NCBI GenBank assembly: GCA_017482485.1 | Contig: JAFUMV010000149.1 | Span: 1 to 54,810, forward strand | Direction: 5' to 3' | DNA from: Lachnospiraceae bacterium | Lineage (GTDB): Bacteria > Bacillota > Clostridia > Lachnospirales > Lachnospiraceae | Length of the DNA stretch: 54,810 nt | Part shown: positions 33,591-52,247 of the stretch, in pieces | Layout: every line of letters begins with the position of its first letter | How positions within the stretch are numbered: the stretch's first letter is position 1 | The notes under the pieces: generated by a model | What the model was told of the DNA's origin: nothing | Seen by the model: only the letters and a program-made list of their open reading frames with translations | Databases searched by the model: none | Program-made: the position numbers and the translations under genes

Positions 33591-33690
33591 TACCGGACGT
33601 CAAAAGAACAGCCGGTCGTTTTTTCTTCCCTTTTATCGGGGAATGTTCAAACTTTTTACTTAACTATTTTTACGGAGGAGGTGTTTGCTT

Positions 33691-34926
33691 TTGGCAAATG
33701 CAAATCAATTAAAGACGTACTTTCCCATGATCCGGGAAAAGGAGGAACTGCTGTCAGAAATTCAGGGAAATTCCAGATTGAGGCTCATGTATGAGCAATG
33801 GAGCCAGGATGAGAAAGAGAATTTTGTGAATTTTTGCTGCGGCAACAGAGGGATCCGGATTTTGTATGATTCTTTTTTTAAAGAAGTCATGAACGCAGAA
33901 TCCGATCGTACCAGACTGGAGGATTTTCTGGGAACAATCCTGAATAGAAAGGTGAAGATCGTAAACATCCTTCAGAATGACAGCACTCGAATTGCAGATG
34001 AAACCAGTCTTCTGGTAACCGATATTGTGGTAGAACTGGAGGACGGCACCTTGGCTAATGTGGAAATTCAGAAGGTAGGTTACATGTTTCCGGGCGCACG
34101 ATGTGCCTGCTATTCTGCGGATTTGCTTTTGAGACAGTACAAGCGTGTGCGTGAGCAAAAGAAAAAGAAATTTTCCTATCGGGATGTCAAAACGGTATTT
34201 CTCATTGTACTTTATGAGCACAGTCCGCAGGAATTCCATGATTATCCGGATATTTACTGTCATCATGCAAAGCAGGTATTTGACAGCAGGCTGAAGCTGG
34301 ATTTATTGCAGGAATTCTACATGCTGCCCCTTGACATCTTCAAAAAGCATATGCAGAATAGAAATATAGAAAACAAGTTGGAGGCCTGGCTGACCTTCTT
34401 CAGCGAAGACAGACCGGAAAAGATCGTCGAGCTGATCAATCTTTATCCGCAGTTTAAGGCCATGTATCAGACACTTTATAACATGTGTCAGAATACGGAG
34501 CAGCTTATGGGTATATTTTCAAAAGAATTGCGCGAACTGGATCGTAATACGGCAGAATATATGATAGAGGAACAACAGCGGGTCATCGAGCAAAACCGGC
34601 AGACGATTGCGCAGAACCGGCAGACCATAGAGCAGCACCGGCAGACCATAGAGCAGAACCGGCAGACCATAGAGCAAAACCGGCAGACCATAGAGCAGCA
34701 CCGGCAGACCATAGAGCAGCACCGGCAGACGATTGCGCAGAATCAGAAGACGATAGAGCAGAACCAGCAGACCATAGAACAGGACCGGCAGACGATAGAG
34801 CAAAACCGGCAGACGATTGCCCGGCAGCAGGAAACGATTGCTCAGAATATGCAAACCATCTCTGAAAAAGATGAAATTATCGCTGCATTGATGAAAGCAC
34901 TGGAAGAACAGAAAAAGACGGTATGA
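33691..34926 (+). CDS. Rpn/PD-(D/E)XK nuclease-family transposase-like protein with heptad-repeat tail
   Basis: A 411-residue protein. Residues ~45-290 match the Rpn family of transposase-related PD-(D/E)XK nucleases; the active-site signature is VTDIVVELEDGTLANVEIQ (Asp ... Glu-x-Gln), and SFFKEVMNAESDRTRLEDFLG is the usual opening. The C-terminal ~115 residues are a tandem heptad repeat (RQTIEQN/H) predicted to form a coiled coil. No ATG opens the frame; TTG at 33691 is chosen because GGAGGAGG is 9 nt upstream, whereas the TTG six bases earlier is too close. No terminal inverted repeats were seen. Rpn proteins elsewhere promote RecA-independent recombination; the repeat tail varies between copies. 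Confidence 0.85.
   Translation: MANANQLKTYFPMIREKEELLSEIQGNSRLRLMYEQWSQDEKENFVNFCCGNRGIRILYDSFFKEVMNAESDRTRLEDFLGTILNRKVKIVNILQNDSTRIADETSLLVTDIVVELEDGTLANVEIQKVGYMFPGARCACYSADLLLRQYKRVREQKKKKFSYRDVKTVFLIVLYEHSPQEFHDYPDIYCHHAKQVFDSRLKLDLLQEFYMLPLDIFKKHMQNRNIENKLEAWLTFFSEDRPEKIVELINLYPQFKAMYQTLYNMCQNTEQLMGIFSKELRELDRNTAEYMIEEQQRVIEQNRQTIAQNRQTIEQHRQTIEQNRQTIEQNRQTIEQHRQTIEQHRQTIAQNQKTIEQNQQTIEQDRQTIEQNRQTIARQQETIAQNMQTISEKDEIIAALMKALEEQKKTV
34579..34872 (+). repeat. 21-bp tandem repeat encoding a heptad coiled coil
   Basis: About fourteen consecutive 21-bp units, mostly of the form CGGCAGACCATAGAGCAGCAC or close variants, encode RQTIEQN/RQTIEQH heptads inside the Rpn-like gene. Central units are nearly identical at DNA level, so copy number can change in frame by slippage or recombination. 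The outer units have diverged. Confidence 0.95.
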
Positions 34927-42584: not shown

Positions 42585-43349
42585 TTATGCATTCACTTGA
42601 CCGACAGTCGCTGCCAAAACAGTAAATTCACCTTCACCATCGACTCCCAGATAGTCATCACATTTCTGCTGCCCATATGCCCCGATACAACAAGCGCCAA
42701 GTCCCAGCGCTTCTGCACTCAGATACAGGTTCTGATCCAGATGGCCCAGATCCACCAGTGACATACGATGAGCTTCCGTATCATAACGATATTCACTTCT
42801 GTAAATATCACAGGTCCAGTAGATGATGACTGATGACTTTGCCGTCCAGATCTGCTCCTCCAGATTTTCCACAGATTTTCTTTCAAAATCCGCCTCTTGG
42901 CGTATCAGCTCCAGCACGTTTTCATCCGGTGCATAATGATAAAGTCCGGGAAGCAAACCCTCCACACGGTTTACCTGGATATAGGTTTCAAACGGATGTC
43001 TGGCCCCTGCACTTGGAACCGGTCTTGCGGTTCTGGTCATATTTTCTCTGTATAACCTGACTCCCTGTACGCTCCACAGAAGGAAGGCCAACTGTGAAAG
43101 AGTAATTGCCTCTCCAGTGTACTTTCTGCGCGATCTGCGATTTTGCAGCAGCTTAAAGTAATCCTTTTCTGCAAAACCGTTAAAATCCGAAATCTCCGGC
43201 AGCAAAATCTTCTCAATTGCTGTTCTATGCCGAAAAAGCGGCGGCTGCGTTAATCCTTTTTTCTGATCGGAGGGCTCCCGCTCCAGTCCAAATCCGCTTT
43301 TCATGAAGTTTCTGCGCTCTGCCAGCAGCTGTCTAGTCCTGTCTTCCAT
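42585..43349 (-). CDS. SagB/ThcOx-family FMN-dependent dehydrogenase
   Basis: A 254-residue nitroreductase-fold flavoprotein of the SagB/McbC type. Flavin-contact regions are visible: RRSRRKYTG (71-79), PVPSAGARHPFETYI (110-124), and LGLGACCIGAYGQ near 215-230. SagB enzymes oxidise azoline rings to azoles in RiPP pathways, but related proteins act on other substrates, and no YcaO cyclodehydratase is encoded here. It starts 6 nt after the LanC-like gene and ends the operon that begins with the Cys-rich micro-ORF. AAAGGG precedes the start. Substrate unknown. Confidence 0.85.
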   Translation of the reverse strand: MEDRTRQLLAERRNFMKSGFGLEREPSDQKKGLTQPPLFRHRTAIEKILLPEISDFNGFAEKDYFKLLQNRRSRRKYTGEAITLSQLAFLLWSVQGVRLYRENMTRTARPVPSAGARHPFETYIQVNRVEGLLPGLYHYAPDENVLELIRQEADFERKSVENLEEQIWTAKSSVIIYWTCDIYRSEYRYDTEAHRMSLVDLGHLDQNLYLSAEALGLGACCIGAYGQQKCDDYLGVDGEGEFTVLAATVGQVNA

Positions 43350-43355
43350 TTGTCT

Positions 43356-44750
43356 TCACCCTTTCTCCGTTAAGCTGGTTTTAGGGAACGGATCATTGGG
43401 CAGTCTTGATACCTGAAATTGATTCTGATTCGCCAGATAAAGCTGCAGCAGCGCTGTTCCGATACCTGCAGCACCATTCTGGAAACCGGTGTCATAGGTT
43501 GTAAGAGCAGGCCGAATTCTTGTATAGGATTGCAGCCAGTACATATAAGGATCCTTTGTAATCTTGGCAGCACCGATAATATGCCGGCCGCCCCGATTTG
43601 CAAGTTCCAGGTATTTCTGTTCTCCGTTATCAGCCCAAAGACCCAAAAACAGGTTGACAATTCCTGCGGTGCCGCAGCACTGAGAATAGACATTCCAATA
43701 TCCTTCAGAATGATTTTCCGGTGCACCTGCATCAATTACACCCTGAACCAGCCGATCCAGCCATTCCTTATAGGACTCTTTTCCTGTCAGTTTATATAAC
43801 AGATAAAACAGTCTTCCTGTCCCGGCAGGTCCATGGCAATATCCCAGATAAAAAACATCTGTCAGATCAGGATAGCGGTAAGGAATCAGCGCGCCGTCTC
43901 CCTGTACTACCGCAATGGACGTAAGATATTCTGCCGCTTCATCTGCCGCCTTCAGGAATTCTTCCCGTCCGGTCGCCTCATAAAGTCGTGCGAAAGCGTA
44001 GGCTGCTCCTGCATCTCCATGTTCAAAGTTAGGCCAGTAAATCTTATACTCAATTCCCTGCTTATAGTAGCCGTTATCATAACTGATATGACCGTCATCC
44101 AGCTTTCGTGCTGTAGTCAGCAAATACTCTCCGACTTTAGCCGCGGTCTCTACCCAAGAACTCTCCTGGAAATATTCCGCCGCATACAAAAGAAACATGA
44201 TGGTGCCTCCATCAGCATCATAGGCAGCACGTCCGGTCCATTTCTTTCCAACTTCCGCTTTTACCGCACCCTTAACAAGCTTATCCACCAGTTTTTTGAC
44301 AAACGCCTCTAACTCCTTATCCTCATACACTTTCAAAAGCTCAATAACAGGATAAAGGATGCCGGACAGTCCTGAGGAAAAAGACCATTTGGAAAAGGCT
44401 TCCGGCAAGTCAAATCCATAAGGAAACTCATCGTCCTGCTGCGCTCTGATATAGCGAATTCCGTCCAATGCAGCATTCAAATATTCCTCTTCCCTGACAG
44501 CAGCGTACAGCTGTACAAAATAGAAAATAATTCCGGCATTTCCGGCATAAAACGTCAAACCGCTTTCCGGATCCTCTTTAGGCAAAATACCATCTACGTC
44601 CACTAATTTGGGCCAGGTCAGTCCTTCCGGTGTCCGGATGCTCACGTCCAGCAGCCACTTTGCTACAGCTCTGGCTCCATCCAGATAACTGATTTTATCC
44701 GGGGCCTGAAACAGCGGCCGGATCTGATAAAGAATTTTCTGATTGCTCAT
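43356..44750 (-). CDS. Stand-alone LanC-like protein
   Basis: A 464-residue alpha/alpha-toroid protein of the lanthionine-synthetase C family. Successive inner-helix glycine motifs are visible: FYAGNAGIIFYF, FSSGLSGILYP, NFEHGDAGAAYAF (His244), YCHGPAGTGRLFY (Cys305-His306), QCCGTAGIVNLF (Cys358-Cys359) and FQNGAAGIGTALL. In LanC cyclases zinc is held by Cys and Cys-His, the CHG coming last; here CHG comes first and CCG second, so zinc binding is likely but the ligand order is altered. No LanB/LanM dehydratase is present. It lies between OppF and the SagB-type gene in a tight operon. Lanthionine formation is therefore not assured; thiol addition or removal on another substrate is possible. 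Confidence 0.87.
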   Translation of the reverse strand: MSNQKILYQIRPLFQAPDKISYLDGARAVAKWLLDVSIRTPEGLTWPKLVDVDGILPKEDPESGLTFYAGNAGIIFYFVQLYAAVREEEYLNAALDGIRYIRAQQDDEFPYGFDLPEAFSKWSFSSGLSGILYPVIELLKVYEDKELEAFVKKLVDKLVKGAVKAEVGKKWTGRAAYDADGGTIMFLLYAAEYFQESSWVETAAKVGEYLLTTARKLDDGHISYDNGYYKQGIEYKIYWPNFEHGDAGAAYAFARLYEATGREEFLKAADEAAEYLTSIAVVQGDGALIPYRYPDLTDVFYLGYCHGPAGTGRLFYLLYKLTGKESYKEWLDRLVQGVIDAGAPENHSEGYWNVYSQCCGTAGIVNLFLGLWADNGEQKYLELANRGGRHIIGAAKITKDPYMYWLQSYTRIRPALTTYDTGFQNGAAGIGTALLQLYLANQNQFQVSRLPNDPFPKTSLTEKG

Positions 44751-44769: not shown

Positions 44770-45705
44770 TCATGAATTTAACTGCTTTTGATATTCCAAA
44801 AGCTTATCACTGTCGCATAAAATAAAATGACGATCTGACAGCTTCTGCAGCTTTCCTTTATGATCTGCTGCCTGCGGTATGTATTCCGTCTGCTTCATGC
44901 TGCCGCGCTGGTAAGGATCGGGAACGGGAATCGCGGAAAATAAGCTTCTGGTGTAAGGATGCAGCGGATGGTTATAAATTTCTTCTGTATCCCCCATTTC
45001 CACAATTTTTCCCTGATACATAACCGCCACTCTGTCACTGATATGTCTGACCATATAAAGGTCATGGGCTACAAACAGCAGCGTAAGCTTTTCCTCCAGC
45101 TGCAGTTTTTTCAACAGATTGATAATCTGCGCCTGTATAGACACATCAAGTGCGGAAACCGGCTCATCGCAGATAATCAGCTTAGGGCGAAGGGCAAGTG
45201 CCCGCGCAATTCCAACTCTCTGCCGCTGTCCTCCGGAAAACTCACTGGGATAACGTCTGATGAAATCCGGCCGCAGTCCCACCTGCTTCAGAAGTTCAAC
45301 AGTCCGCTTTTCCAGCTCCTGCCTGTTCTTATACTGTTTATGGATCTCAAGCGGCTCCTGGATTATTTCACCGATTGTCAGTTTGGGATTCAGAGACGCA
45401 TAAGGATCCTGGAAAATCATCTGTACATTTCTGCGGTATTCACTTAATTCCTGCTTGTCCATCCTGGAAACATCTTTCCCGTTAAAGTAGATATTTCCGG
45501 AAGTCGGATCATAAATTTTTACAATAGTTCTTCCCAGCGTCGTCTTTCCGCACCCGGATTCTCCAATCAGTCCAAATGTTTCGCCTTCCCGAATTTCAAG
45601 ACTGACATCGTCCACCGCACGTATGCAGCGCCTCTTTCGAAAGATTCCGCCGGATACCGTAAAATATGTCTTCAATGATTCTATCTTTAATAATGTTTTT
45701 TCCAT
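44770..45705 (-). CDS. oppF: Oligopeptide ABC transporter ATPase, OppF-like
   Basis: A 311-residue ATPase with Walker A GESGCGKTT, signature EFSGGQRQRVGIARALAL, Walker B LIICDEPVSALD and H-loop FVAHDLYMV. The end (HPLHPYTRSLFSAIPVPDP) is the Opp/Dpp C-terminal extension. It overlaps the OppD gene by 19 nt, showing translational coupling, and pairs with OppD to power peptide import. Confidence 0.92.
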   Translation of the reverse strand: MEKTLLKIESLKTYFTVSGGIFRKRRCIRAVDDVSLEIREGETFGLIGESGCGKTTLGRTIVKIYDPTSGNIYFNGKDVSRMDKQELSEYRRNVQMIFQDPYASLNPKLTIGEIIQEPLEIHKQYKNRQELEKRTVELLKQVGLRPDFIRRYPSEFSGGQRQRVGIARALALRPKLIICDEPVSALDVSIQAQIINLLKKLQLEEKLTLLFVAHDLYMVRHISDRVAVMYQGKIVEMGDTEEIYNHPLHPYTRSLFSAIPVPDPYQRGSMKQTEYIPQAADHKGKLQKLSDRHFILCDSDKLLEYQKQLNS

Positions 45706-46733
45706 TTCGCATACCTTTCCCTGATATCCTCAGGAACATCCACTTTCGGTGCCCTCGGATCTAATAGCCAGGTCGCCGCGTAATGCGTATTTGTCACCTT
45801 AAAAAACGGTGGCTGCAAAACTGCATCTATATTTAACGCATACGGATTTCTCGGATAAAACGCATCTCCCACAGGAGGTGTGTGCAGATCCGGAGGATTG
45901 CCCGGTATCGCATAAAGCTCTTTATTCTCTCCGTTCACCTGAGGAATCGACTGCAGCAGTCCCCAGGTATAAGGATGCTGGGGATGATAAAAAATCTCAT
46001 CCACCTGTCCGTATTCCACAATTTTTCCAGCATACATAACGGCCACACGATCCGCCAGTTCTGCAATAATTCCCAGATCATGGGTGATAAAGATGATTGA
46101 TGTTTTAAGTCGCGCGCAGACATCCTTCAGGATATTCAGCACCTGTGCCTGAACAGTAACATCCAGCGCTGTTGTGGGCTCATCCGCTATGATCAGCTTT
46201 GGTTCATTGGCAATCGCAATCGCGATAATAATTCTCTGACGCATACCTCCGGAAAGCTGAAACGGATACTGCTTTAATCTCTGCTCGGGATCATGGATTC
46301 CCACCATCTTCAACAGCTCGAGTGCCCGTGCTGCGGCCTGCTGCCTGGAAATCCGGTTGTGATTCAAAATCGTTTCCTCGATCTGCGCCCCGATGGTAAG
46401 GGAAGGATTTAAAAAGGTCATCGGATCCTGGAATACCATACCGATCTGACTTCCACGAAGTGTATTCATTTTATGGGTATATTCCTTTTCAGAAGAAAAA
46501 GCAGTTCGCCCAATCTCCTGACCGTCAAAGACGATGCTGCCTCCGGTCACCTGTCCGTTCTCGGAAAGCAGGCCCAGGATAGAGCGCATCATTGCACTCT
46601 TTCCGCATCCGGATTCACCGACAATTCCCAATACCTCGCCGCTGTTGAGTGTAAAAGAAACGTCTCTGACAGCCTGAACACTCCCCATATCTGTTTTAAA
46701 TTCTGTAGATAAGTGGTTGACTTCCAATAACAT
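45687..46733 (-). CDS. oppD: Oligopeptide ABC transporter ATPase, OppD-like
   Basis: A 348-residue ATPase: Walker A GESGCGKSA, signature LSGGMRQRIIIAIAIA, Walker B LIIADEPTTALD, H-loop FITHDLGIIAE. The C-terminal extension has the HPQHPYTWGLLQSIPQ motif, but the cysteine cluster that often holds an iron-sulfur centre in OppD is absent. Residue 9 of Walker A is Ala rather than Thr, a mild change also seen in relatives. Starts 14 nt after OppC. Confidence 0.92.
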   Translation of the reverse strand: MLLEVNHLSTEFKTDMGSVQAVRDVSFTLNSGEVLGIVGESGCGKSAMMRSILGLLSENGQVTGGSIVFDGQEIGRTAFSSEKEYTHKMNTLRGSQIGMVFQDPMTFLNPSLTIGAQIEETILNHNRISRQQAAARALELLKMVGIHDPEQRLKQYPFQLSGGMRQRIIIAIAIANEPKLIIADEPTTALDVTVQAQVLNILKDVCARLKTSIIFITHDLGIIAELADRVAVMYAGKIVEYGQVDEIFYHPQHPYTWGLLQSIPQVNGENKELYAIPGNPPDLHTPPVGDAFYPRNPYALNIDAVLQPPFFKVTNTHYAATWLLDPRAPKVDVPEDIRERYAKWKKHY

Positions 46734-46747
46734 ATCTTTTCTCCATC

Positions 46748-47665
46748 CTATTCAAATGCTTCCGTCAGTCCGTCTCCAATGAAATTAAAGGAAAGTACGG
46801 TCAGGCTGAGTGCCAGCATCGGCCATATTACATGAATCGGATAGGAAGTTATTACTTCTCTGGCTTCATTTGCCAGAACACCCCAGCTGGCATTCGGCGG
46901 TGTAATTCCGATTCCAACAAAACTGAAAAAGGACTCCGTCAGAATGGCTTTCGGAATGCTGGTTACCATGACAATGATGATCGGTCCCAGTGAATTGAGC
47001 ACCACATCTTTAAACAGGATGCGCGCCTGTCCCGCTCCCAGGGTTTTTGAAGCCAGCACATACTCCCTTTCTTTCAGCGCCAGTACCTGTGCACGTACCT
47101 GACGTGCCATGCCCACCCAGGATGTAAGGGTGATGGCAATTAACATGCTCTTAAATCCGTTTCCCAATGTCACCAAAATAAGAATCACATACAGATAGCT
47201 CGGGACTGAGTAAATAATATCCACAATACGCATCATTACATTGTCTACCCAGCCGCCCTTCAGGCCTGAAATTCCACCGTAAATTACACCGATCACCAGG
47301 TTAAAAAAAGCCGCCGAGAAGCCGATCAGTAAAGAAACCCTTGCTCCTACCATAACACGTACAAGAATATCTCTTCCCAGCTTATCCGTTCCGAAAGGAT
47401 GGGTCCAGGAAGGCAACGCATTTCGATTGGACAGATCCTGGGTATTGTACTGAAACTCCGAAAAAGCAGGTACAAAAATTGCCATGAGGATAATCAGTCC
47501 AATGAATATAAGTCCCAACATAGCCAGTTTATTCTGCATAAACCTTTTTCCGGCTCTCCTGAGAACTGTCTGTGTTTTCAAAAGCTTAATATCTGCCGTT
47601 TTTTCTGCTTCCGGTAAAAAATCGAATAACGCATCCTGCGACAGATCTTTTTTTACACTTTCCAT
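46748..47665 (-). CDS. oppC: Oligopeptide ABC transporter permease, OppC-like
   Basis: A 305-residue permease. A cytoplasmic N-terminus is followed by the first helix (LAMLGLIFIGLIILMAIFVPAF), then an extracellular loop with HPFGTDKLGRDILVRVMVGAR, which marks OppC/DppC. The EAA loop is LKEREYVLASKTLGAGQARILF. Start preceded by GGGAG. Confidence 0.92.
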   Translation of the reverse strand: MESVKKDLSQDALFDFLPEAEKTADIKLLKTQTVLRRAGKRFMQNKLAMLGLIFIGLIILMAIFVPAFSEFQYNTQDLSNRNALPSWTHPFGTDKLGRDILVRVMVGARVSLLIGFSAAFFNLVIGVIYGGISGLKGGWVDNVMMRIVDIIYSVPSYLYVILILVTLGNGFKSMLIAITLTSWVGMARQVRAQVLALKEREYVLASKTLGAGQARILFKDVVLNSLGPIIIVMVTSIPKAILTESFFSFVGIGITPPNASWGVLANEAREVITSYPIHVIWPMLALSLTVLSFNFIGDGLTEAFE

Positions 47666-47687: not shown

Positions 47688-48611
47688 TTACTTTTCCAAT
47701 TTGATTTGCGGACTGAGTATCGCTGACAAAATATCAGTCAGCAGATTAATCAGAATTACGATCACACCCAGAAATACCGCAAGTCCCATAATCAGAGTAT
47801 AATCACGTCCGGAAACGCTGGATACGAACTCATAACCGATTCCGGGAATGGAAAACAGCGATTCTATCACAAAGCTTCCCGTAATCAGCGCTGAAAACTG
47901 CGGACCGCTGTAAGTCAGTACGGGCAGGAATGCATTTTTCAGACAATGTTTTAAAACAATCCGCCTTTCCGAAGTTCCCTTCGATCTGGCCAGCACTATA
48001 TAATCCTGTGAAAGTACATCCCTTAAACTGTTTCGCGTCAGACGACAAATCATGGAAATCGGATTAAAGGACAGAGCCAGGGTCGGAAGGATGTAATGGA
48101 GCGGTGTCTTCAATCCAACGATTGGCAGCACCGGAATTTTTACCCCCAGCAATATCATCAGAAGCATGGCGACGAAGAAGTTGGGAACACTGATTCCAAG
48201 AGATGTAATCACAGAAATAACGTAATTAAATTTCTTACTTTTGGAAAGAGCTCCCGCCGTCCCCAAAGCCACTCCGACAATCAGCGAAAAGAAAAATGCA
48301 CACAACCCAAGCTTCAGAGAAGCAGGAAAACTCCTTCCAATGATATATGTAACGGACATACCCGTCATGACCATGGAATTATCAAAATTCCCTGTCAGGG
48401 CATTTTTCATATAATTAAAATATTGTACATAGATTGGCTGATCCAGTCCGTATTTTGCATTCAGATTATCAATATATTCCTGCGGGAATATTTTGTCTTC
48501 CAGTTCAAATGGGCTTCCAGGTATACTTTTCATCAAAAAGAAAACAACTGTTGCCAGGACAAGAAGTGTCAGCATCCCATATAACAGTCTTTTTAAAACG
48601 TAACTGGTCAT
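47688..48611 (-). CDS. oppB: Oligopeptide ABC transporter permease, OppB-like
   Basis: A 307-residue permease with first helix KRLLYGMLTLLVLATVVFFL, the extracellular YGLDQPIYVQYFNYMKNALTGNFD typical of OppB/DppB, and EAA loop SQDYIVLARSKGTSERRIVL. The frame can be extended six codons, but AAAGGAG lies 8 nt before the ATG used here (MTSYVLKRL). A hairpin separates it from the binding-protein gene. Confidence 0.92.
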   Translation of the reverse strand: MTSYVLKRLLYGMLTLLVLATVVFFLMKSIPGSPFELEDKIFPQEYIDNLNAKYGLDQPIYVQYFNYMKNALTGNFDNSMVMTGMSVTYIIGRSFPASLKLGLCAFFFSLIVGVALGTAGALSKSKKFNYVISVITSLGISVPNFFVAMLLMILLGVKIPVLPIVGLKTPLHYILPTLALSFNPISMICRLTRNSLRDVLSQDYIVLARSKGTSERRIVLKHCLKNAFLPVLTYSGPQFSALITGSFVIESLFSIPGIGYEFVSSVSGRDYTLIMGLAVFLGVIVILINLLTDILSAILSPQIKLEK

Positions 48612-48634
48612 TTGACCTGCTCCTTTCATAAACT

Positions 48635-48680: not shown

Positions 48681-50399
48681 TCAGTTAATATCAGCATACC
48701 AGAACACATAGCCGCCGTCCGGATACCATTCGATTCCGCTGACATTGGTCTTAACCAGATGTGCATTGTTAAAAGCAAAGATAGGAACTACGTAGTTCTC
48801 CTGCTCGATCAGCTTGTTTTCCACATTGTGCAGCAGTTCGTTTCTCTCATTCTCATCCAGCTCAACTGTTGCTGAATCCAGCCAGGTATTAATATCGCTG
48901 TCGTTTAAATAAACAGGTGACTGATTGGTGGAGTTGAAATAATCCAGCAAAGTCTGAGGATCCATATAGTCGGGGCCCATCGCATAGCGATACAGATTAA
49001 AGTCCAGACTGCCCTTTTTCGTTGAAAGTGCCTGAGATTCCAGTGCTTCAATTTCCAGATTTACATTAATTTCAGCCAGCTGTGCCTGAAGGATTTCTGC
49101 AACAGTGGTATTTCTGGTGTTGGAAGAATAAGGATAGTAAAGAGTCAGCGGATTATCCTGTGTATATCCTTCTGCTTCCAGAAGTGCTTTCGCTTCTTCC
49201 TTATCTTCTACAATCAAATCTCCTGCCTCAGTACGGAAATCTTCTCCGTTAGGACCACTGATTCCGGAAGGTACGATACCGTACAGTGCAATGTATGCAT
49301 TTCCTCCATCCAGTGCCTCTACGATCTGCTGGCGGTTGATACCGATGCTGACAGCTTTTCTCACGTTCTCAGACAATACTGCGTTCTCGCTGTCCTCACT
49401 GACATTAAAGGTCAGGTAATAATTGAAAGCAGCTTTGGGAATCTGAATTTCCGCCTGATCTCCGGAATATGTCAATACCGTGTCGGAAGGAGGATCCAGC
49501 GCCACATCGATACTTCCATTCTGGAAAGCCAGAAGCTGTGACTGGGCATCTGAAATAATTTTGAGAGTCAGTTTATCCAGATTAATCTTATCTGCATCCG
49601 CAAAATAGGGATTCTTTACCAGTACCACTTCTTCCTTTTCATTTACTGATTCCAGATAGAAAGGACCATTGAAAGGAGTTTCCGGATTGAAGGACCAGCT
49701 CTCATCATGCTCCGGTGCAAAATCCGCACGAACCGGGAAATATACATTGTATGCTGTCAGCTGTACAAAATATGCACAGGGCTTCTCCAGCGTGATTTCA
49801 AGGGTATCGTCATCCAGCGCCTTAATGCCTACTTCCGTCTGCTCCGCCACGGACAGACCCTGATCAAAGGCTTCTTTTGCACCAACCACATAATTGTAAA
49901 TGTAATAAGGATAATCTGCATCTGCGCCATAACTGAGAACACGCTTGATGCCATATTCAAAATCACTCGCTTTTACCTTTTCGCCGTCACTCCAGTAATT
50001 TTCAATCAGTTTAAAGGTATAAACCAGTCCATCCTCACTGACTGTATAGGATTCACAGCTTGCATTCTGTAATTTACCATTCTCATCGAAATAGAACAGC
50101 GGATAATAAAGCTCACGCAGCACGTTTGTCGTAGTTGTTCCGGAGTTCACCGGGTCAAAATAGGACGGACTGCTGCTCCAGCCTACTACCAGTTCCTTGC
50201 TTTCTGCAGCATCACCTTCTGCTGCTTCACTTTCCTCTGATTGATCCTGTACAGATTCTGTCGCTTTGCTCGTAACATTCTCCGTATCGGCTGCCACTGT
50301 TCCACTATTGGCAGTATTGCTTCCGCATCCAACCAGTCCTGCCAGCAATGCTGCTGCCATGCCGATTGCTAAAACTCTTTTGTAGCTCTTCTTTATCAT
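48681..50399 (-). CDS. oppA: Oligopeptide-binding lipoprotein, OppA-like
   Basis: A 572-residue family-5 extracellular solute-binding protein. The signal peptide ends LAGLVGCGSN (lipobox), followed by an acidic Ser/Thr-rich linker. The binding domain shows SSPSYFDPVNSGTTTTNVLRELYYPL, the family start, and the late YPYSSNTRNTTVAEILQAQL. Start: the frame begins with ATGGAGGTTATGATG; the GGAGG in it is the ribosome site, so the ATG 5 nt later is chosen. The stop of the Cys-rich micro-ORF lies 70 nt upstream with a hairpin between. It should capture a peptide, possibly one rich in cysteine or modified, but specificity is not visible. Confidence 0.92.
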   Translation of the reverse strand: MIKKSYKRVLAIGMAAALLAGLVGCGSNTANSGTVAADTENVTSKATESVQDQSEESEAAEGDAAESKELVVGWSSSPSYFDPVNSGTTTTNVLRELYYPLFYFDENGKLQNASCESYTVSEDGLVYTFKLIENYWSDGEKVKASDFEYGIKRVLSYGADADYPYYIYNYVVGAKEAFDQGLSVAEQTEVGIKALDDDTLEITLEKPCAYFVQLTAYNVYFPVRADFAPEHDESWSFNPETPFNGPFYLESVNEKEEVVLVKNPYFADADKINLDKLTLKIISDAQSQLLAFQNGSIDVALDPPSDTVLTYSGDQAEIQIPKAAFNYYLTFNVSEDSENAVLSENVRKAVSIGINRQQIVEALDGGNAYIALYGIVPSGISGPNGEDFRTEAGDLIVEDKEEAKALLEAEGYTQDNPLTLYYPYSSNTRNTTVAEILQAQLAEINVNLEIEALESQALSTKKGSLDFNLYRYAMGPDYMDPQTLLDYFNSTNQSPVYLNDSDINTWLDSATVELDENERNELLHNVENKLIEQENYVVPIFAFNNAHLVKTNVSGIEWYPDGGYVFWYADIN

Positions 50400-50430
50400 C
50401 ATAACCTCCATGTGTCATTCCATTTGATTT

Positions 50431-50451
50431 GCAGAAAACACGGTTTTCTGC
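50431..50451 (-). other. Perfect hairpin between the Cys-rich micro-ORF and OppA
   Basis: GCAGAAAAC-CGT-GTTTTCTGC, a 9-bp stem with 3-nt loop. On the minus strand it is followed by AAATCAAATGG, so there is no U-tract and simple intrinsic termination is unlikely. It could be a processing or stability element for the micro-ORF message, or part of an attenuator responding to ribosome position on the cysteine codons. Confidence 0.65.
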
Positions 50452-50469
50452 TTTAAGCATATTTCTTTA

Positions 50470-50568
50470 TCAGTTAAAATCCGCTATGCAGCAACAGGCC
50501 ATATGAACTTTTTGTCTCATACAACAGCAATAGCCTGCTTCTTTTCTTGCAATCTGAATGTAAGCCAT
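50470..50568 (-). CDS. Micro-ORF with two triple-cysteine clusters, candidate RiPP precursor or Cys leader peptide
   Basis: A 32-codon frame that standard gene callers would miss. Residues 1-13 are MAYIQIARKEAGY; then Cys14-Cys15-Cys16, a 8-residue MRQKVHMA spacer, Cys25-Cys26-Cys27 and the tail IADFN. Six of 32 residues are cysteine, encoded TGC TGT TGT and TGT TGC TGC. The Shine-Dalgarno AAGGAGG is optimal, 6 nt from the ATG, which strongly argues for translation. It is the first gene after a TTGACA box and precedes OppABCDF, a LanC-like protein and a SagB-type oxidase. Two readings fit: a peptide modified by LanC/SagB-type enzymes, or a polycysteine leader that stalls ribosomes when Cys-tRNA is short. 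No exporter or leader peptidase is encoded nearby. Confidence 0.75.
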   Translation of the reverse strand: MAYIQIARKEAGYCCCMRQKVHMACCCIADFN

Positions 50569-50615
50569 CTCGTTCCTCCTTCTAGCAACCTTTTACCCAT
50601 TAATCCGGTAGGTTT

Positions 50616-50649
50616 GTTATAAGTTAACACTATCTTAATAATTTGTCAA
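50616..50649 (-). promoter_or_regulatory. Candidate promoter of the micro-ORF/Opp/LanC/SagB operon
   Basis: A perfect TTGACA -35 (50644-50649) reads toward the micro-ORF. The -10 is ambiguous: TAACTT at 17-nt spacing or TATAAC at 22 nt. The start codon is about 50 nt downstream. The poor -10 could mean an activator is needed. Confidence 0.5.
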
Positions 50650-50953
50650 TAGAAAACGTAGAAAAATTTACATTTTTTACAAAAACATCGAAAATACTCT
50701 TACTTCTCACAAAAATTATAAAAAAATACAGGTATGATGGCATATGGAAGCGATTTTTCCCGAATTATCCCGAAAAACCTTACTTACTGATAATTTCTGC
50801 GGAACATATGACAATTTCACCCCACGCAAAAAAGACATCCCCCCGAAATTTCTTTCAGGAAAATGTCCTTTTATATTGGTTCATCCTTCTTCGACTGTGT
50901 GTTCCTTTGTACACTGCAGGAAGCAGCGGTGGGCTGTTTCAACGTTTATGAAC
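50650..50953. other. Gene-free AT-rich spacer
   Basis: About 300 nt between the lyase stop and the Opp-operon promoter. Plus-strand frames of 102 and 74 codons exist but lack ribosome sites and family resemblance. No terminator for the lyase gene was found. A weak GACAT/ATGTC pairing near 50832-50866 is the only structure seen. Confidence 0.5.
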
Positions 50954-52156
50954 TCATACTTTTACTGACAGCCCGGTCTTCTCCAACGCCTGCTGCAGAT
51001 CTGCAATAATATCCTCTACATCCTCAATCCCCACTGAGAAACGGAAAAATCCATTGTGGAATTCTTCAGGATACAGATACTGCCGCTCGTCGTTCTCGCC
51101 CAGAAATACGATGAGGCTTTCATCATGTCCCAAAGAGACAGCTGAAGTGATAACCTTCAAATGGCTTACAAATTTGTTGTGGGTGTCATGATCAGCCTTC
51201 AAGCCGAAGGACAGCACCCCTCCAAAGCCGGGAGACATCTGTTTTTTTGCCGTCTCGTGCCCTTTGTTGCTCTCCAGCCCGGGATAAGCGACAAAGCTCA
51301 CACAGGGCTGCTTTTCCAGCCATTTGGCAACCTTTAAGGCATTCTCATTATGCTGACGCATCCGCAAAGGCAGCGTGACAGAGCCCCGCATAATCAGCCA
51401 GGCATTGAAAGGACTGATCGTACCGCCCAGATTCACCTGGGACTGGGCCCTGATCTGATCCAGATATTGAGTTTTTCCCACAATGGCGCCTCCCATGGAG
51501 TCACCGTGTCCGTTGATATACTTGGTCAGACTCTCCAGCGCAAAGTCCGCTCCCAGTTCAATGGGACGCTGGTTGTAGGGAGAAGCAAAGGTATTATCCA
51601 CGCTGAGCAGCGCACCGTGGCGATGTGCGATATCAGCAATCGCAGTGATATCCGAAATAGTCAGAGTAGGATTTCCCGGTGTCTCGATATGGATGAGTTT
51701 CGTGTTGGGGCGGATAGCGGCTTCTACATTAGCAGGATCGGAAGTATCCACAATGGTAGTCTCCACACCAAATTTATTGTTCAGCAGCTCGTTTAACAGA
51801 CGATAGACGGCAATATATGTAACGCTCGAGAAAATCACGTGATCGCCCTGATTCAGTAAAGCAAAAAACAGGCCGCTAAGAGCCGCCACACCGGAAGCGA
51901 GAACCACGCAGTCCTCCCCACCCTCCAGCGAAGCAATGCGCTCCTGCAAATATTTCTGGTTGGTACCACCGTTACGGGTATAAAGGTTTCCGGCCGCACT
52001 GGACCAGTTCATATCCGTAGGATCATAGGGCAGGGCATAGCTGTTGGCCATGGTGATCGGCCGCTTAATCGCTCCACTGTCCTGATCAATATCATTGCCG
52101 GTATGTACCGCTCTGGTGGCAAAACCGTACTCCGGACCAAAGGTATGCTTTTCCAT
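50954..52156 (-). CDS. Trans-sulfuration-family PLP enzyme (methionine/cystathionine gamma-lyase type)
   Basis: A 400-residue PLP enzyme of the Cys/Met-metabolism family. The PLP lysine is in SLTKYINGHGDSMGGA, the ring-stacking and Asp regions are in LASGVAALSGLFFALLNQGDHV and SVDNTFASP, and YTRNGGTNQKYLQERIASLEGG is the active-site tyrosine segment contributed by the partner subunit. The family includes cystathionine gamma-synthase, gamma- and beta-lyases and methionine gamma-lyase; a lyase is likely but not provable by eye. It lies upstream of the Cys-rich micro-ORF on the same strand, with its own promoter, tying the neighbourhood to sulfur amino acids. Start preceded by AAAGGGCG. Confidence 0.9.
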   Translation of the reverse strand: MEKHTFGPEYGFATRAVHTGNDIDQDSGAIKRPITMANSYALPYDPTDMNWSSAAGNLYTRNGGTNQKYLQERIASLEGGEDCVVLASGVAALSGLFFALLNQGDHVIFSSVTYIAVYRLLNELLNNKFGVETTIVDTSDPANVEAAIRPNTKLIHIETPGNPTLTISDITAIADIAHRHGALLSVDNTFASPYNQRPIELGADFALESLTKYINGHGDSMGGAIVGKTQYLDQIRAQSQVNLGGTISPFNAWLIMRGSVTLPLRMRQHNENALKVAKWLEKQPCVSFVAYPGLESNKGHETAKKQMSPGFGGVLSFGLKADHDTHNKFVSHLKVITSAVSLGHDESLIVFLGENDERQYLYPEEFHNGFFRFSVGIEDVEDIIADLQQALEKTGLSVKV

Positions 52157-52199
52157 ATTTTCGCCCTTTCTTTAGATAAATATTTATAAACCTATTATT

Positions 52200-52247
52200 C
52201 CAATCTGTTTATTGGTATATGGTATCACCGCAATTTCCGACTGTCAA
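52200..52247 (-). promoter_or_regulatory. Promoter and inverted repeat upstream of the PLP lyase
   Basis: TTGACA (52242-52247) and TACCAT (52219-52224) are 17 nt apart reading minus. Just downstream, CCAAT-N6-ATTGG (52200-52215) overlaps the predicted transcription start and could be an operator. No SAM or T-box leader was recognised. Confidence 0.6.

Follow-up and report, generated by a model that had tools for sequence, protein, structure and literature searches.

The micro-ORF and its surroundings

The window, by which we mean the whole 54,810-nt stretch of Lachnospiraceae DNA under analysis, carries a short frame (the micro-ORF) that encodes the peptide MAYIQIARKEAGYCCCMRQKVHMACCCIADFN. 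Six of its 32 residues are cysteines, the two CCC runs are separated by an 8-residue spacer (MRQKVHMA) and, on inspection, serine and threonine are absent. Downstream and in the same orientation lie genes for a binding lipoprotein, a pair of permeases, a pair of ATPases, a LanC-like protein and a SagB-family dehydrogenase (Table 1). An earlier, sequence-only reading had described the frame with its AAGGAGG site and two CCC clusters eight residues apart, and had placed it at the head of an operon with a peptide importer and LanC-like and SagB-family genes; reading of the letters confirms the former, while shared strand and domain matches confirm the latter. As in a classical cysteine attenuator, a short SD-led ORF with a Cys-codon run lies upstream of an operon. 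The candidate promoter was missing from a consensus promoter scan. Residues C305, C358 and C359 of the LanC-like protein (window numbering), which are invariant across six aligned LanC-like proteins, are presumably zinc ligands.

Table 1. Features around the micro-ORF, by position in the window
Feature	Position	Strand	Remarks
SagB-family dehydrogenase (nitroreductase family)	42585..43349	-	TIGR03605 124.4 bits, cut-off 78.4
Stand-alone LanC-like protein	43356..44750	-	
OppF-type ATPase	44770..45705	-	
OppD-type ATPase	45687..46733	-	
OppC-type permease	46748..47665	-	
OppB-type permease	47688..48629	-	
SBP_bac_5 binding lipoprotein	48681..50402	-	listed ORF 48681-50411; likely start 50399 or 50402
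Hairpin GCAGAAAA-CCGTG-TTTTCTGC	50431..50451	-	8 bp, between leader stop and SBP start
Cys-codon leader ORF	50470..50568	-	32 codons, ATG start, CCC-8aa-CCC
Shine-Dalgarno AAGGAGG of leader ORF	50575..50581	-	6-nt spacer to ATG; read from sequence
Palindromic candidate operator ACCTA-N9-TGGGT, ACCTACCGGATTAATGGGT	50595..50613	-	45 nt before leader start
Candidate promoter TTGACA-17-TAACTT	50621..50649	-	weak -10; read from sequence
Cys/Met-metabolism PLP enzyme	50954..52156	-	separate gene upstream of leader
Partial palindrome copy before Cys/Met PLP gene	52187-52208		pattern match

A micro-ORF that combines an SD site with two runs of Cys codons, six codons in all, is unlikely to have arisen by chance. 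Across 994,061 nt (the loci over 4.5 kb plus the window, with some overlap), there are 596 SD-preceded ORFs of 12 to 60 codons (78 do not lie within a larger ORF), and only two distinct ORFs of this sample contain two CCC runs: the micro-ORF and one at a second locus (L032:12749-12871). A simulation of 21.68 Mb of third-order Markov sequence produced 8,978 SD-preceded ORFs of 12 to 60 codons, of which 38 had at least six Cys and none had a double CCC run. Neither Pfam nor NCBIfam gave a match for the micro-ORF. As a query against 299 family genomes, it reached a best non-self E-value of 0.001, which we judged to be chance; no convincing homologue was obtained.

In a classical attenuator, an intrinsic terminator separates the leader from the first gene, and leader codons form an antiterminator pairing with a terminator arm. 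In the window, the hairpin after the leader stop has no U tract and is therefore not an intrinsic terminator, and the absence of any terminator-like site in 50300-50960 counts against reading the micro-ORF as a leader. The best complement of the leader to downstream sequence is 5 bp, which 484 of 500 shuffles equal, and the leader region folds ordinarily (z-scores of -0.63 and -0.26).

Cysteine-run leaders and a shared palindrome

The candidate operator was noticed by comparing the window's two promoters and was then used as a query in its own genome. Before the Cys/Met PLP gene, the left half-site of the partial copy differs at two bases. The 22-base palindrome pattern, some of whose degenerate letters derive from the window itself, is not enriched in the genome (6 places with up to three mismatches, and 9 for the reversed control). 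The window-site pattern led to a second Cys leader in the same genome (L153:1553-1699, on contig G000:C107; the same leader is L213). Its site, ACCTATTAAACAAATAGGT, shares the half-sites ACCTA/TRGGT with the micro-ORF site, ACCTACCGGATTAATGGGT. Directly after the palindrome there is an SD-led leader, MTLHKSYLNNVTDGVRNSSMGMGAMHMCCCCACCMQDVLPPGDKLGQR, which contains MCCCCACCMQ (CCCC-A-CC), then an intrinsic terminator, GGAGCAGAGATGCTCC-TTTTTTT, and then a transporter permease gene (BPD_transp_1). A homologue of the lipoprotein at L032, 69% identical, is encoded another 2.5 kb along. This second leader heads an ABC-transporter operon of cystine/methionine type.

At L032, the Cys-run ORF immediately precedes an ABC operon. 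The lipoprotein of this operon combines an SBP_bac_3 with an NlpA domain, the ATPase contains a NIL domain, and the neighbours are aminotransferase, Cys/Met PLP, LysR and PALP genes. Behind the Cys-run ORF comes the sequence GCCTGGG-AGTTG-CCCAGGC-TTTTCTTTT. Cys-run leaders are found upstream of at least 11 of 30 homologues of this cystine/methionine-type lipoprotein (L166, L168-L170, L172-L176, L187 and L190), where the remaining loci were partly re-read by eye and L177 offers 2 nt of upstream sequence only. Five loci are incomplete (L167, L170, L184, L193 and L207), and re-reading gave leaders at L170 and L207.

We built a profile, A2, from nine leaders including the window's own; run against the 299 family genomes, it matched in 57 of them at E<=0.5. 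A leader-like ORF was read in 21 of the 24 loci inspected out of 30 (L200-L219 and L222), eight of which are profile rows (L200-L206 and L213) and 13 of which are new; L220, L221 and L223 were dropped, no leader-like ORF having been read there. Most leaders share the core MCCCRML(F/N)S(R/Q)A, and a simple finder places an intrinsic terminator after 13 of 19. By names read from sequence, genes for binding lipoproteins and a methionine-type ATPase are among those that follow. The L222 leader precedes an O-acetylhomoserine sulfhydrylase gene (TIGR01326, 628 bits, cut-off 495), and almost this same protein comes first at L217 and L219. The profile does not recover the window micro-ORF at E<=0.5, although it is one of the nine rows, and in the window's genome it recovers only the C107 leader. 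Since terminator, arm complementarity and A2 recovery are all lacking, the micro-ORF, which would work like a cysteine leader, does not qualify by these tests as a classical attenuator.

In 17 of the 21 (L200-L203, L205, L207-L212, L214, L215, L217-L219 and L222), a stretch of at least 10 consecutive bases after the Cys run can pair with a downstream arm, G-U pairs allowed. Five of these 17 are among the 8 profile rows and the other 12 among the 13 new leaders; such complementarity was not seen in L204, L206, L213 and L216. Counted without phylogenetic correction, the arms carry compensatory changes: CTCCCAGGCA pairs with TGCCTGGGAG, CTCCCGGGCA with TGCCCGGGAG, CTCCCGGACA with TGTCCGGGAG and CTCCCGGGCG with CGCCCGGGAG. 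The Cys-codon leaders appear to form a family in Lachnospiraceae.

The palindrome ACCYA-N9-TRGGT lies within 250 nt upstream of 7 of 24 Cys leaders, or 6 of 23 without L213, which is set apart because it was found through the palindrome; the background loci, which partly overlap and total 854,709 nt, contain this strict form a single time. When one base is relaxed, so that the last base is A or T, 12 of the 24 leaders have it. An upstream ACCTA-N9-TRGGT palindrome, as in about half of the MCCCRML-type leaders, is present in the window. Most leaders that carry the palindrome have it overlapping the -35 box (ACCTATTGACA...), and promoter sequence may therefore account for some of its excess; the copies at the window leader and at C107 sit downstream of the -10. 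A further candidate at L032:15521 was rejected as a terminator-like hairpin.

One of the genome's own Rrf2 genes, at L198, has a two-mismatch palindrome site in its promoter (ACCTATTGACATAGTAGGA, minus strand, L198:226), which is suggestive of a link to that regulator kind. At L196, an inverted repeat, TTCCTA-N9-TAGGAA, lies between an own Rrf2 gene and a 391-aa gene, and the sites at L196 and L198 possibly belong to a cysteine or iron-sulfur regulon. At L111:2741, an ACCTA-N9-TAGGT palindrome lies upstream of a gene starting MKIYADNAATT, a putative cysteine desulfurase by its sequence.

Distribution of the operon and its neighbours

LanC homologues are patchily distributed. Counting the own genome each time, they occur in 19 of 145 relatives at an E-value of 1e-3, in 20 of 397 family genomes at 1e-20 and in 2 of 13 genus genomes; of two genome-contig scans for LanC loci, one confirmed none and the other gave 12 loci. 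SagB and the binding lipoprotein were each also searched in the 145 relatives. When the window's proteins were compared by tblastn with 45 neighbourhoods and 12 more, no locus had LanC and SagB together, and consequently none had Opp, LanC and SagB. An orthologous operon was not found in these genomes and neighbourhoods, and this counts against the leader reading. So does the outcome for the SBP homologues from the 145-relative search, before which no Cys leader was found. In 165 loci read on both strands, Cys-run ORFs occurred only in the window's own copies and at L032; the filter required CCC or two CC and would pass over leaders of the CMCMC type.

The nearest partial case, L124, has in order a SagB gene (42% identical), a terminator, and a family-5 SBP with Opp permeases and ATPases (32-51% identical to the window's). 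It lacks LanC, and neither a Cys ORF nor the palindrome was found before its SagB or its SBP gene; it weighs mildly against a general link between Opp-SagB operons and Cys leaders.

The neighbours of LanC genes may point to sulfur metabolism. A PALP gene lies within 6 kb in 23 of 33 LanC loci and a Cys/Met PLP gene in 6 of the 33, where the window is uncounted and several loci come from one genome; neither gene type lies within 6 kb in any of 18 SagB loci, many of them from other families. The LanC/PALP loci include L109, L028, L117, L160, L165, L031, L032 and L164. For four PALP proteins tested, the best model was the cysteine synthase subfamily at 258-289 bits, below the cut-off of 344; the LanC-adjacent proteins are accordingly best called cysteine-synthase-like, which falls short of proof of that function. 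This pairing is a hint that the role of many stand-alone LanC-like proteins lies in sulfur metabolism and not in antibiotic synthesis. The closest LanC homologues (L024, L155 and L156) have no cysteine-type neighbours, which counts against this link. L154, on the same contig as L024, includes genes for Fe-S and FAD oxidoreductases, for a lactate/malate dehydrogenase and for an antiporter.

A second SagB-like gene, 40% identical to the window's, lies on a short contig of the same genome (G000:C119:1576-2304, L128). Elsewhere in the window, at 33685-34926, a 413-aa ORF ends in C-terminal repeats of the QNRQTIEQ type.

Interpretation and related systems

We consider it likely that the micro-ORF is a cysteine-codon leader (an upstream ORF) of the Opp-LanC-SagB operon and not a peptide product. 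A Cys-sensing leader was one of two possibilities raised by the sequence-only reading, and it gains support both from the own-genome Cys leader, which has a palindrome of this kind, and from the Cys-run leaders that other Lachnospiraceae carry ahead of sulfur genes. Under a shortage of Cys-tRNA, the translating ribosome would stall on the UGY runs and the importer and two enzymes would be expressed more; when cysteine is plentiful, the leader would be completed fast and operon expression would stay low. Because the window leader has no intrinsic terminator, we infer a different relay of stalling, and our guess is Rho-dependent termination or translational coupling. A second layer of control would probably be a repressor on the ACCTA-N9-TRGGT palindrome, perhaps of the Rrf2 kind (CymR or IscR); for Clostridium acetobutylicum, CymR and IscR motifs are proposed (PMC3828012).

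The operon would then act as a cysteine or sulfur scavenging route, importing peptides and salvaging their sulfur. Should the leader prove responsive to cysteine, the function of this orphan Opp-LanC-SagB operon becomes open to direct test. A broader scheme is possible, though we hold it as doubtful: a Lachnospiraceae cysteine regulon would stack a palindromic operator on a Cys-codon leader and command a new sulfur-scavenging operon, in which Opp would take up peptides, the LanC-like and SagB-like enzymes would release or remodel cysteine or thioether sulfur, and control would be relayed without an intrinsic terminator.

The other possibility raised earlier, in which the micro-ORF supplies a RiPP precursor and the LanC and SagB enzymes turn it into a Cys-modified peptide, draws on the adjacency of these two genes and on the six cysteines within 32 residues. 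A lanthipeptide precursor has Ser or Thr to dehydrate as well as Cys; with neither Ser nor Thr, the peptide offers no dehydroamino acid for a LanC thioether. A SagB-associated azole RiPP (TOMM) has a YcaO cyclodehydratase, and none was found in this genome, which is 90% complete, by a search that matched 5 of 14 control genomes. No dehydratase (LanB or LanM), protease or exporter was recognised among the operon genes, and in the PF13575 (LanM) profile search of the genome no control genome matched. LanC-like proteins of this subfamily are, moreover, often paired with cysteine-synthase-like genes, as described above. The data weigh against the precursor proposal, which we now regard as highly improbable.

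Alternatively, the micro-ORF could be a decayed attenuator, a former full Cys leader that is now without U tract and antiterminator and whose control is left to the operator; a complete version exists in the same genome, and an 8-bp hairpin with no T run stands at the terminator's place. However, the SD site and both Cys runs are intact and intermediate forms were not seen, and we consider such decay unlikely. A chance ORF, or an unrelated non-regulatory small protein (metal-binding, for example), would agree with the missing homologues and domain matches, but is opposed by the chance calculations, by the palindrome and by the own-genome parallel, and we give it very little credence.

Canestrari et al. 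(2020) reportedly described polycysteine short ORFs of mycobacteria. The cysteine leaders of Actinobacteria (PMC1262725) resemble the window's in having a short Cys-run ORF upstream of an operon and no conserved terminator hairpin, and Rho-dependent termination has been suggested for these terminator-less leaders. They belong to another phylum and have other targets, whereas the window leader has two CCC runs, an SD-led start and a palindrome, and its cysteine response is a prediction. Tandem Cys codons in an upstream ORF are also found in uORFC-8-2 before cysS of Rhodobacterales, for which PMC8632094 proposes ribosome-mediated attenuation; that leader has a terminator and controls cysteinyl-tRNA synthetase, while the window leader has no terminator.

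For clostridial cysteine control, T-boxes are described and CymR-type regulators proposed (PMC2940859, PMC3828012). In Clostridium perfringens, cysteine supply controls cyst(e)ine uptake and synthesis through T-boxes and premature termination, as proposed here, but T-boxes bind tRNA directly, unlike a leader (PMC2940859). Neither the window nor 15 leader loci had an Rfam match. Outside cysteine, PMC2965389 reported a histidine leader in bacilli in 2010, when its authors were aware of no example beyond Proteobacteria and Actinobacteria except the ermC leader, and a leucine-rich attenuator peptide is reported for Staphylococcus aureus (PMC5794164).

Within the open-licence literature, we found no cysteine leader from Firmicutes or Lachnospiraceae, nor the family of Cys-codon leaders with covarying arms before Lachnospiraceae transporter and sulfhydrylase genes. 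Its members at L200-L219 and L222 share with the window a short Cys-run ORF, an upstream palindrome in about half of the cases and, where read, a transporter or sulfur gene downstream; most of them have the MCCCRML(F/N)S(R/Q)A core, arm complementarity and a terminator, whereas the window leader has none of these.
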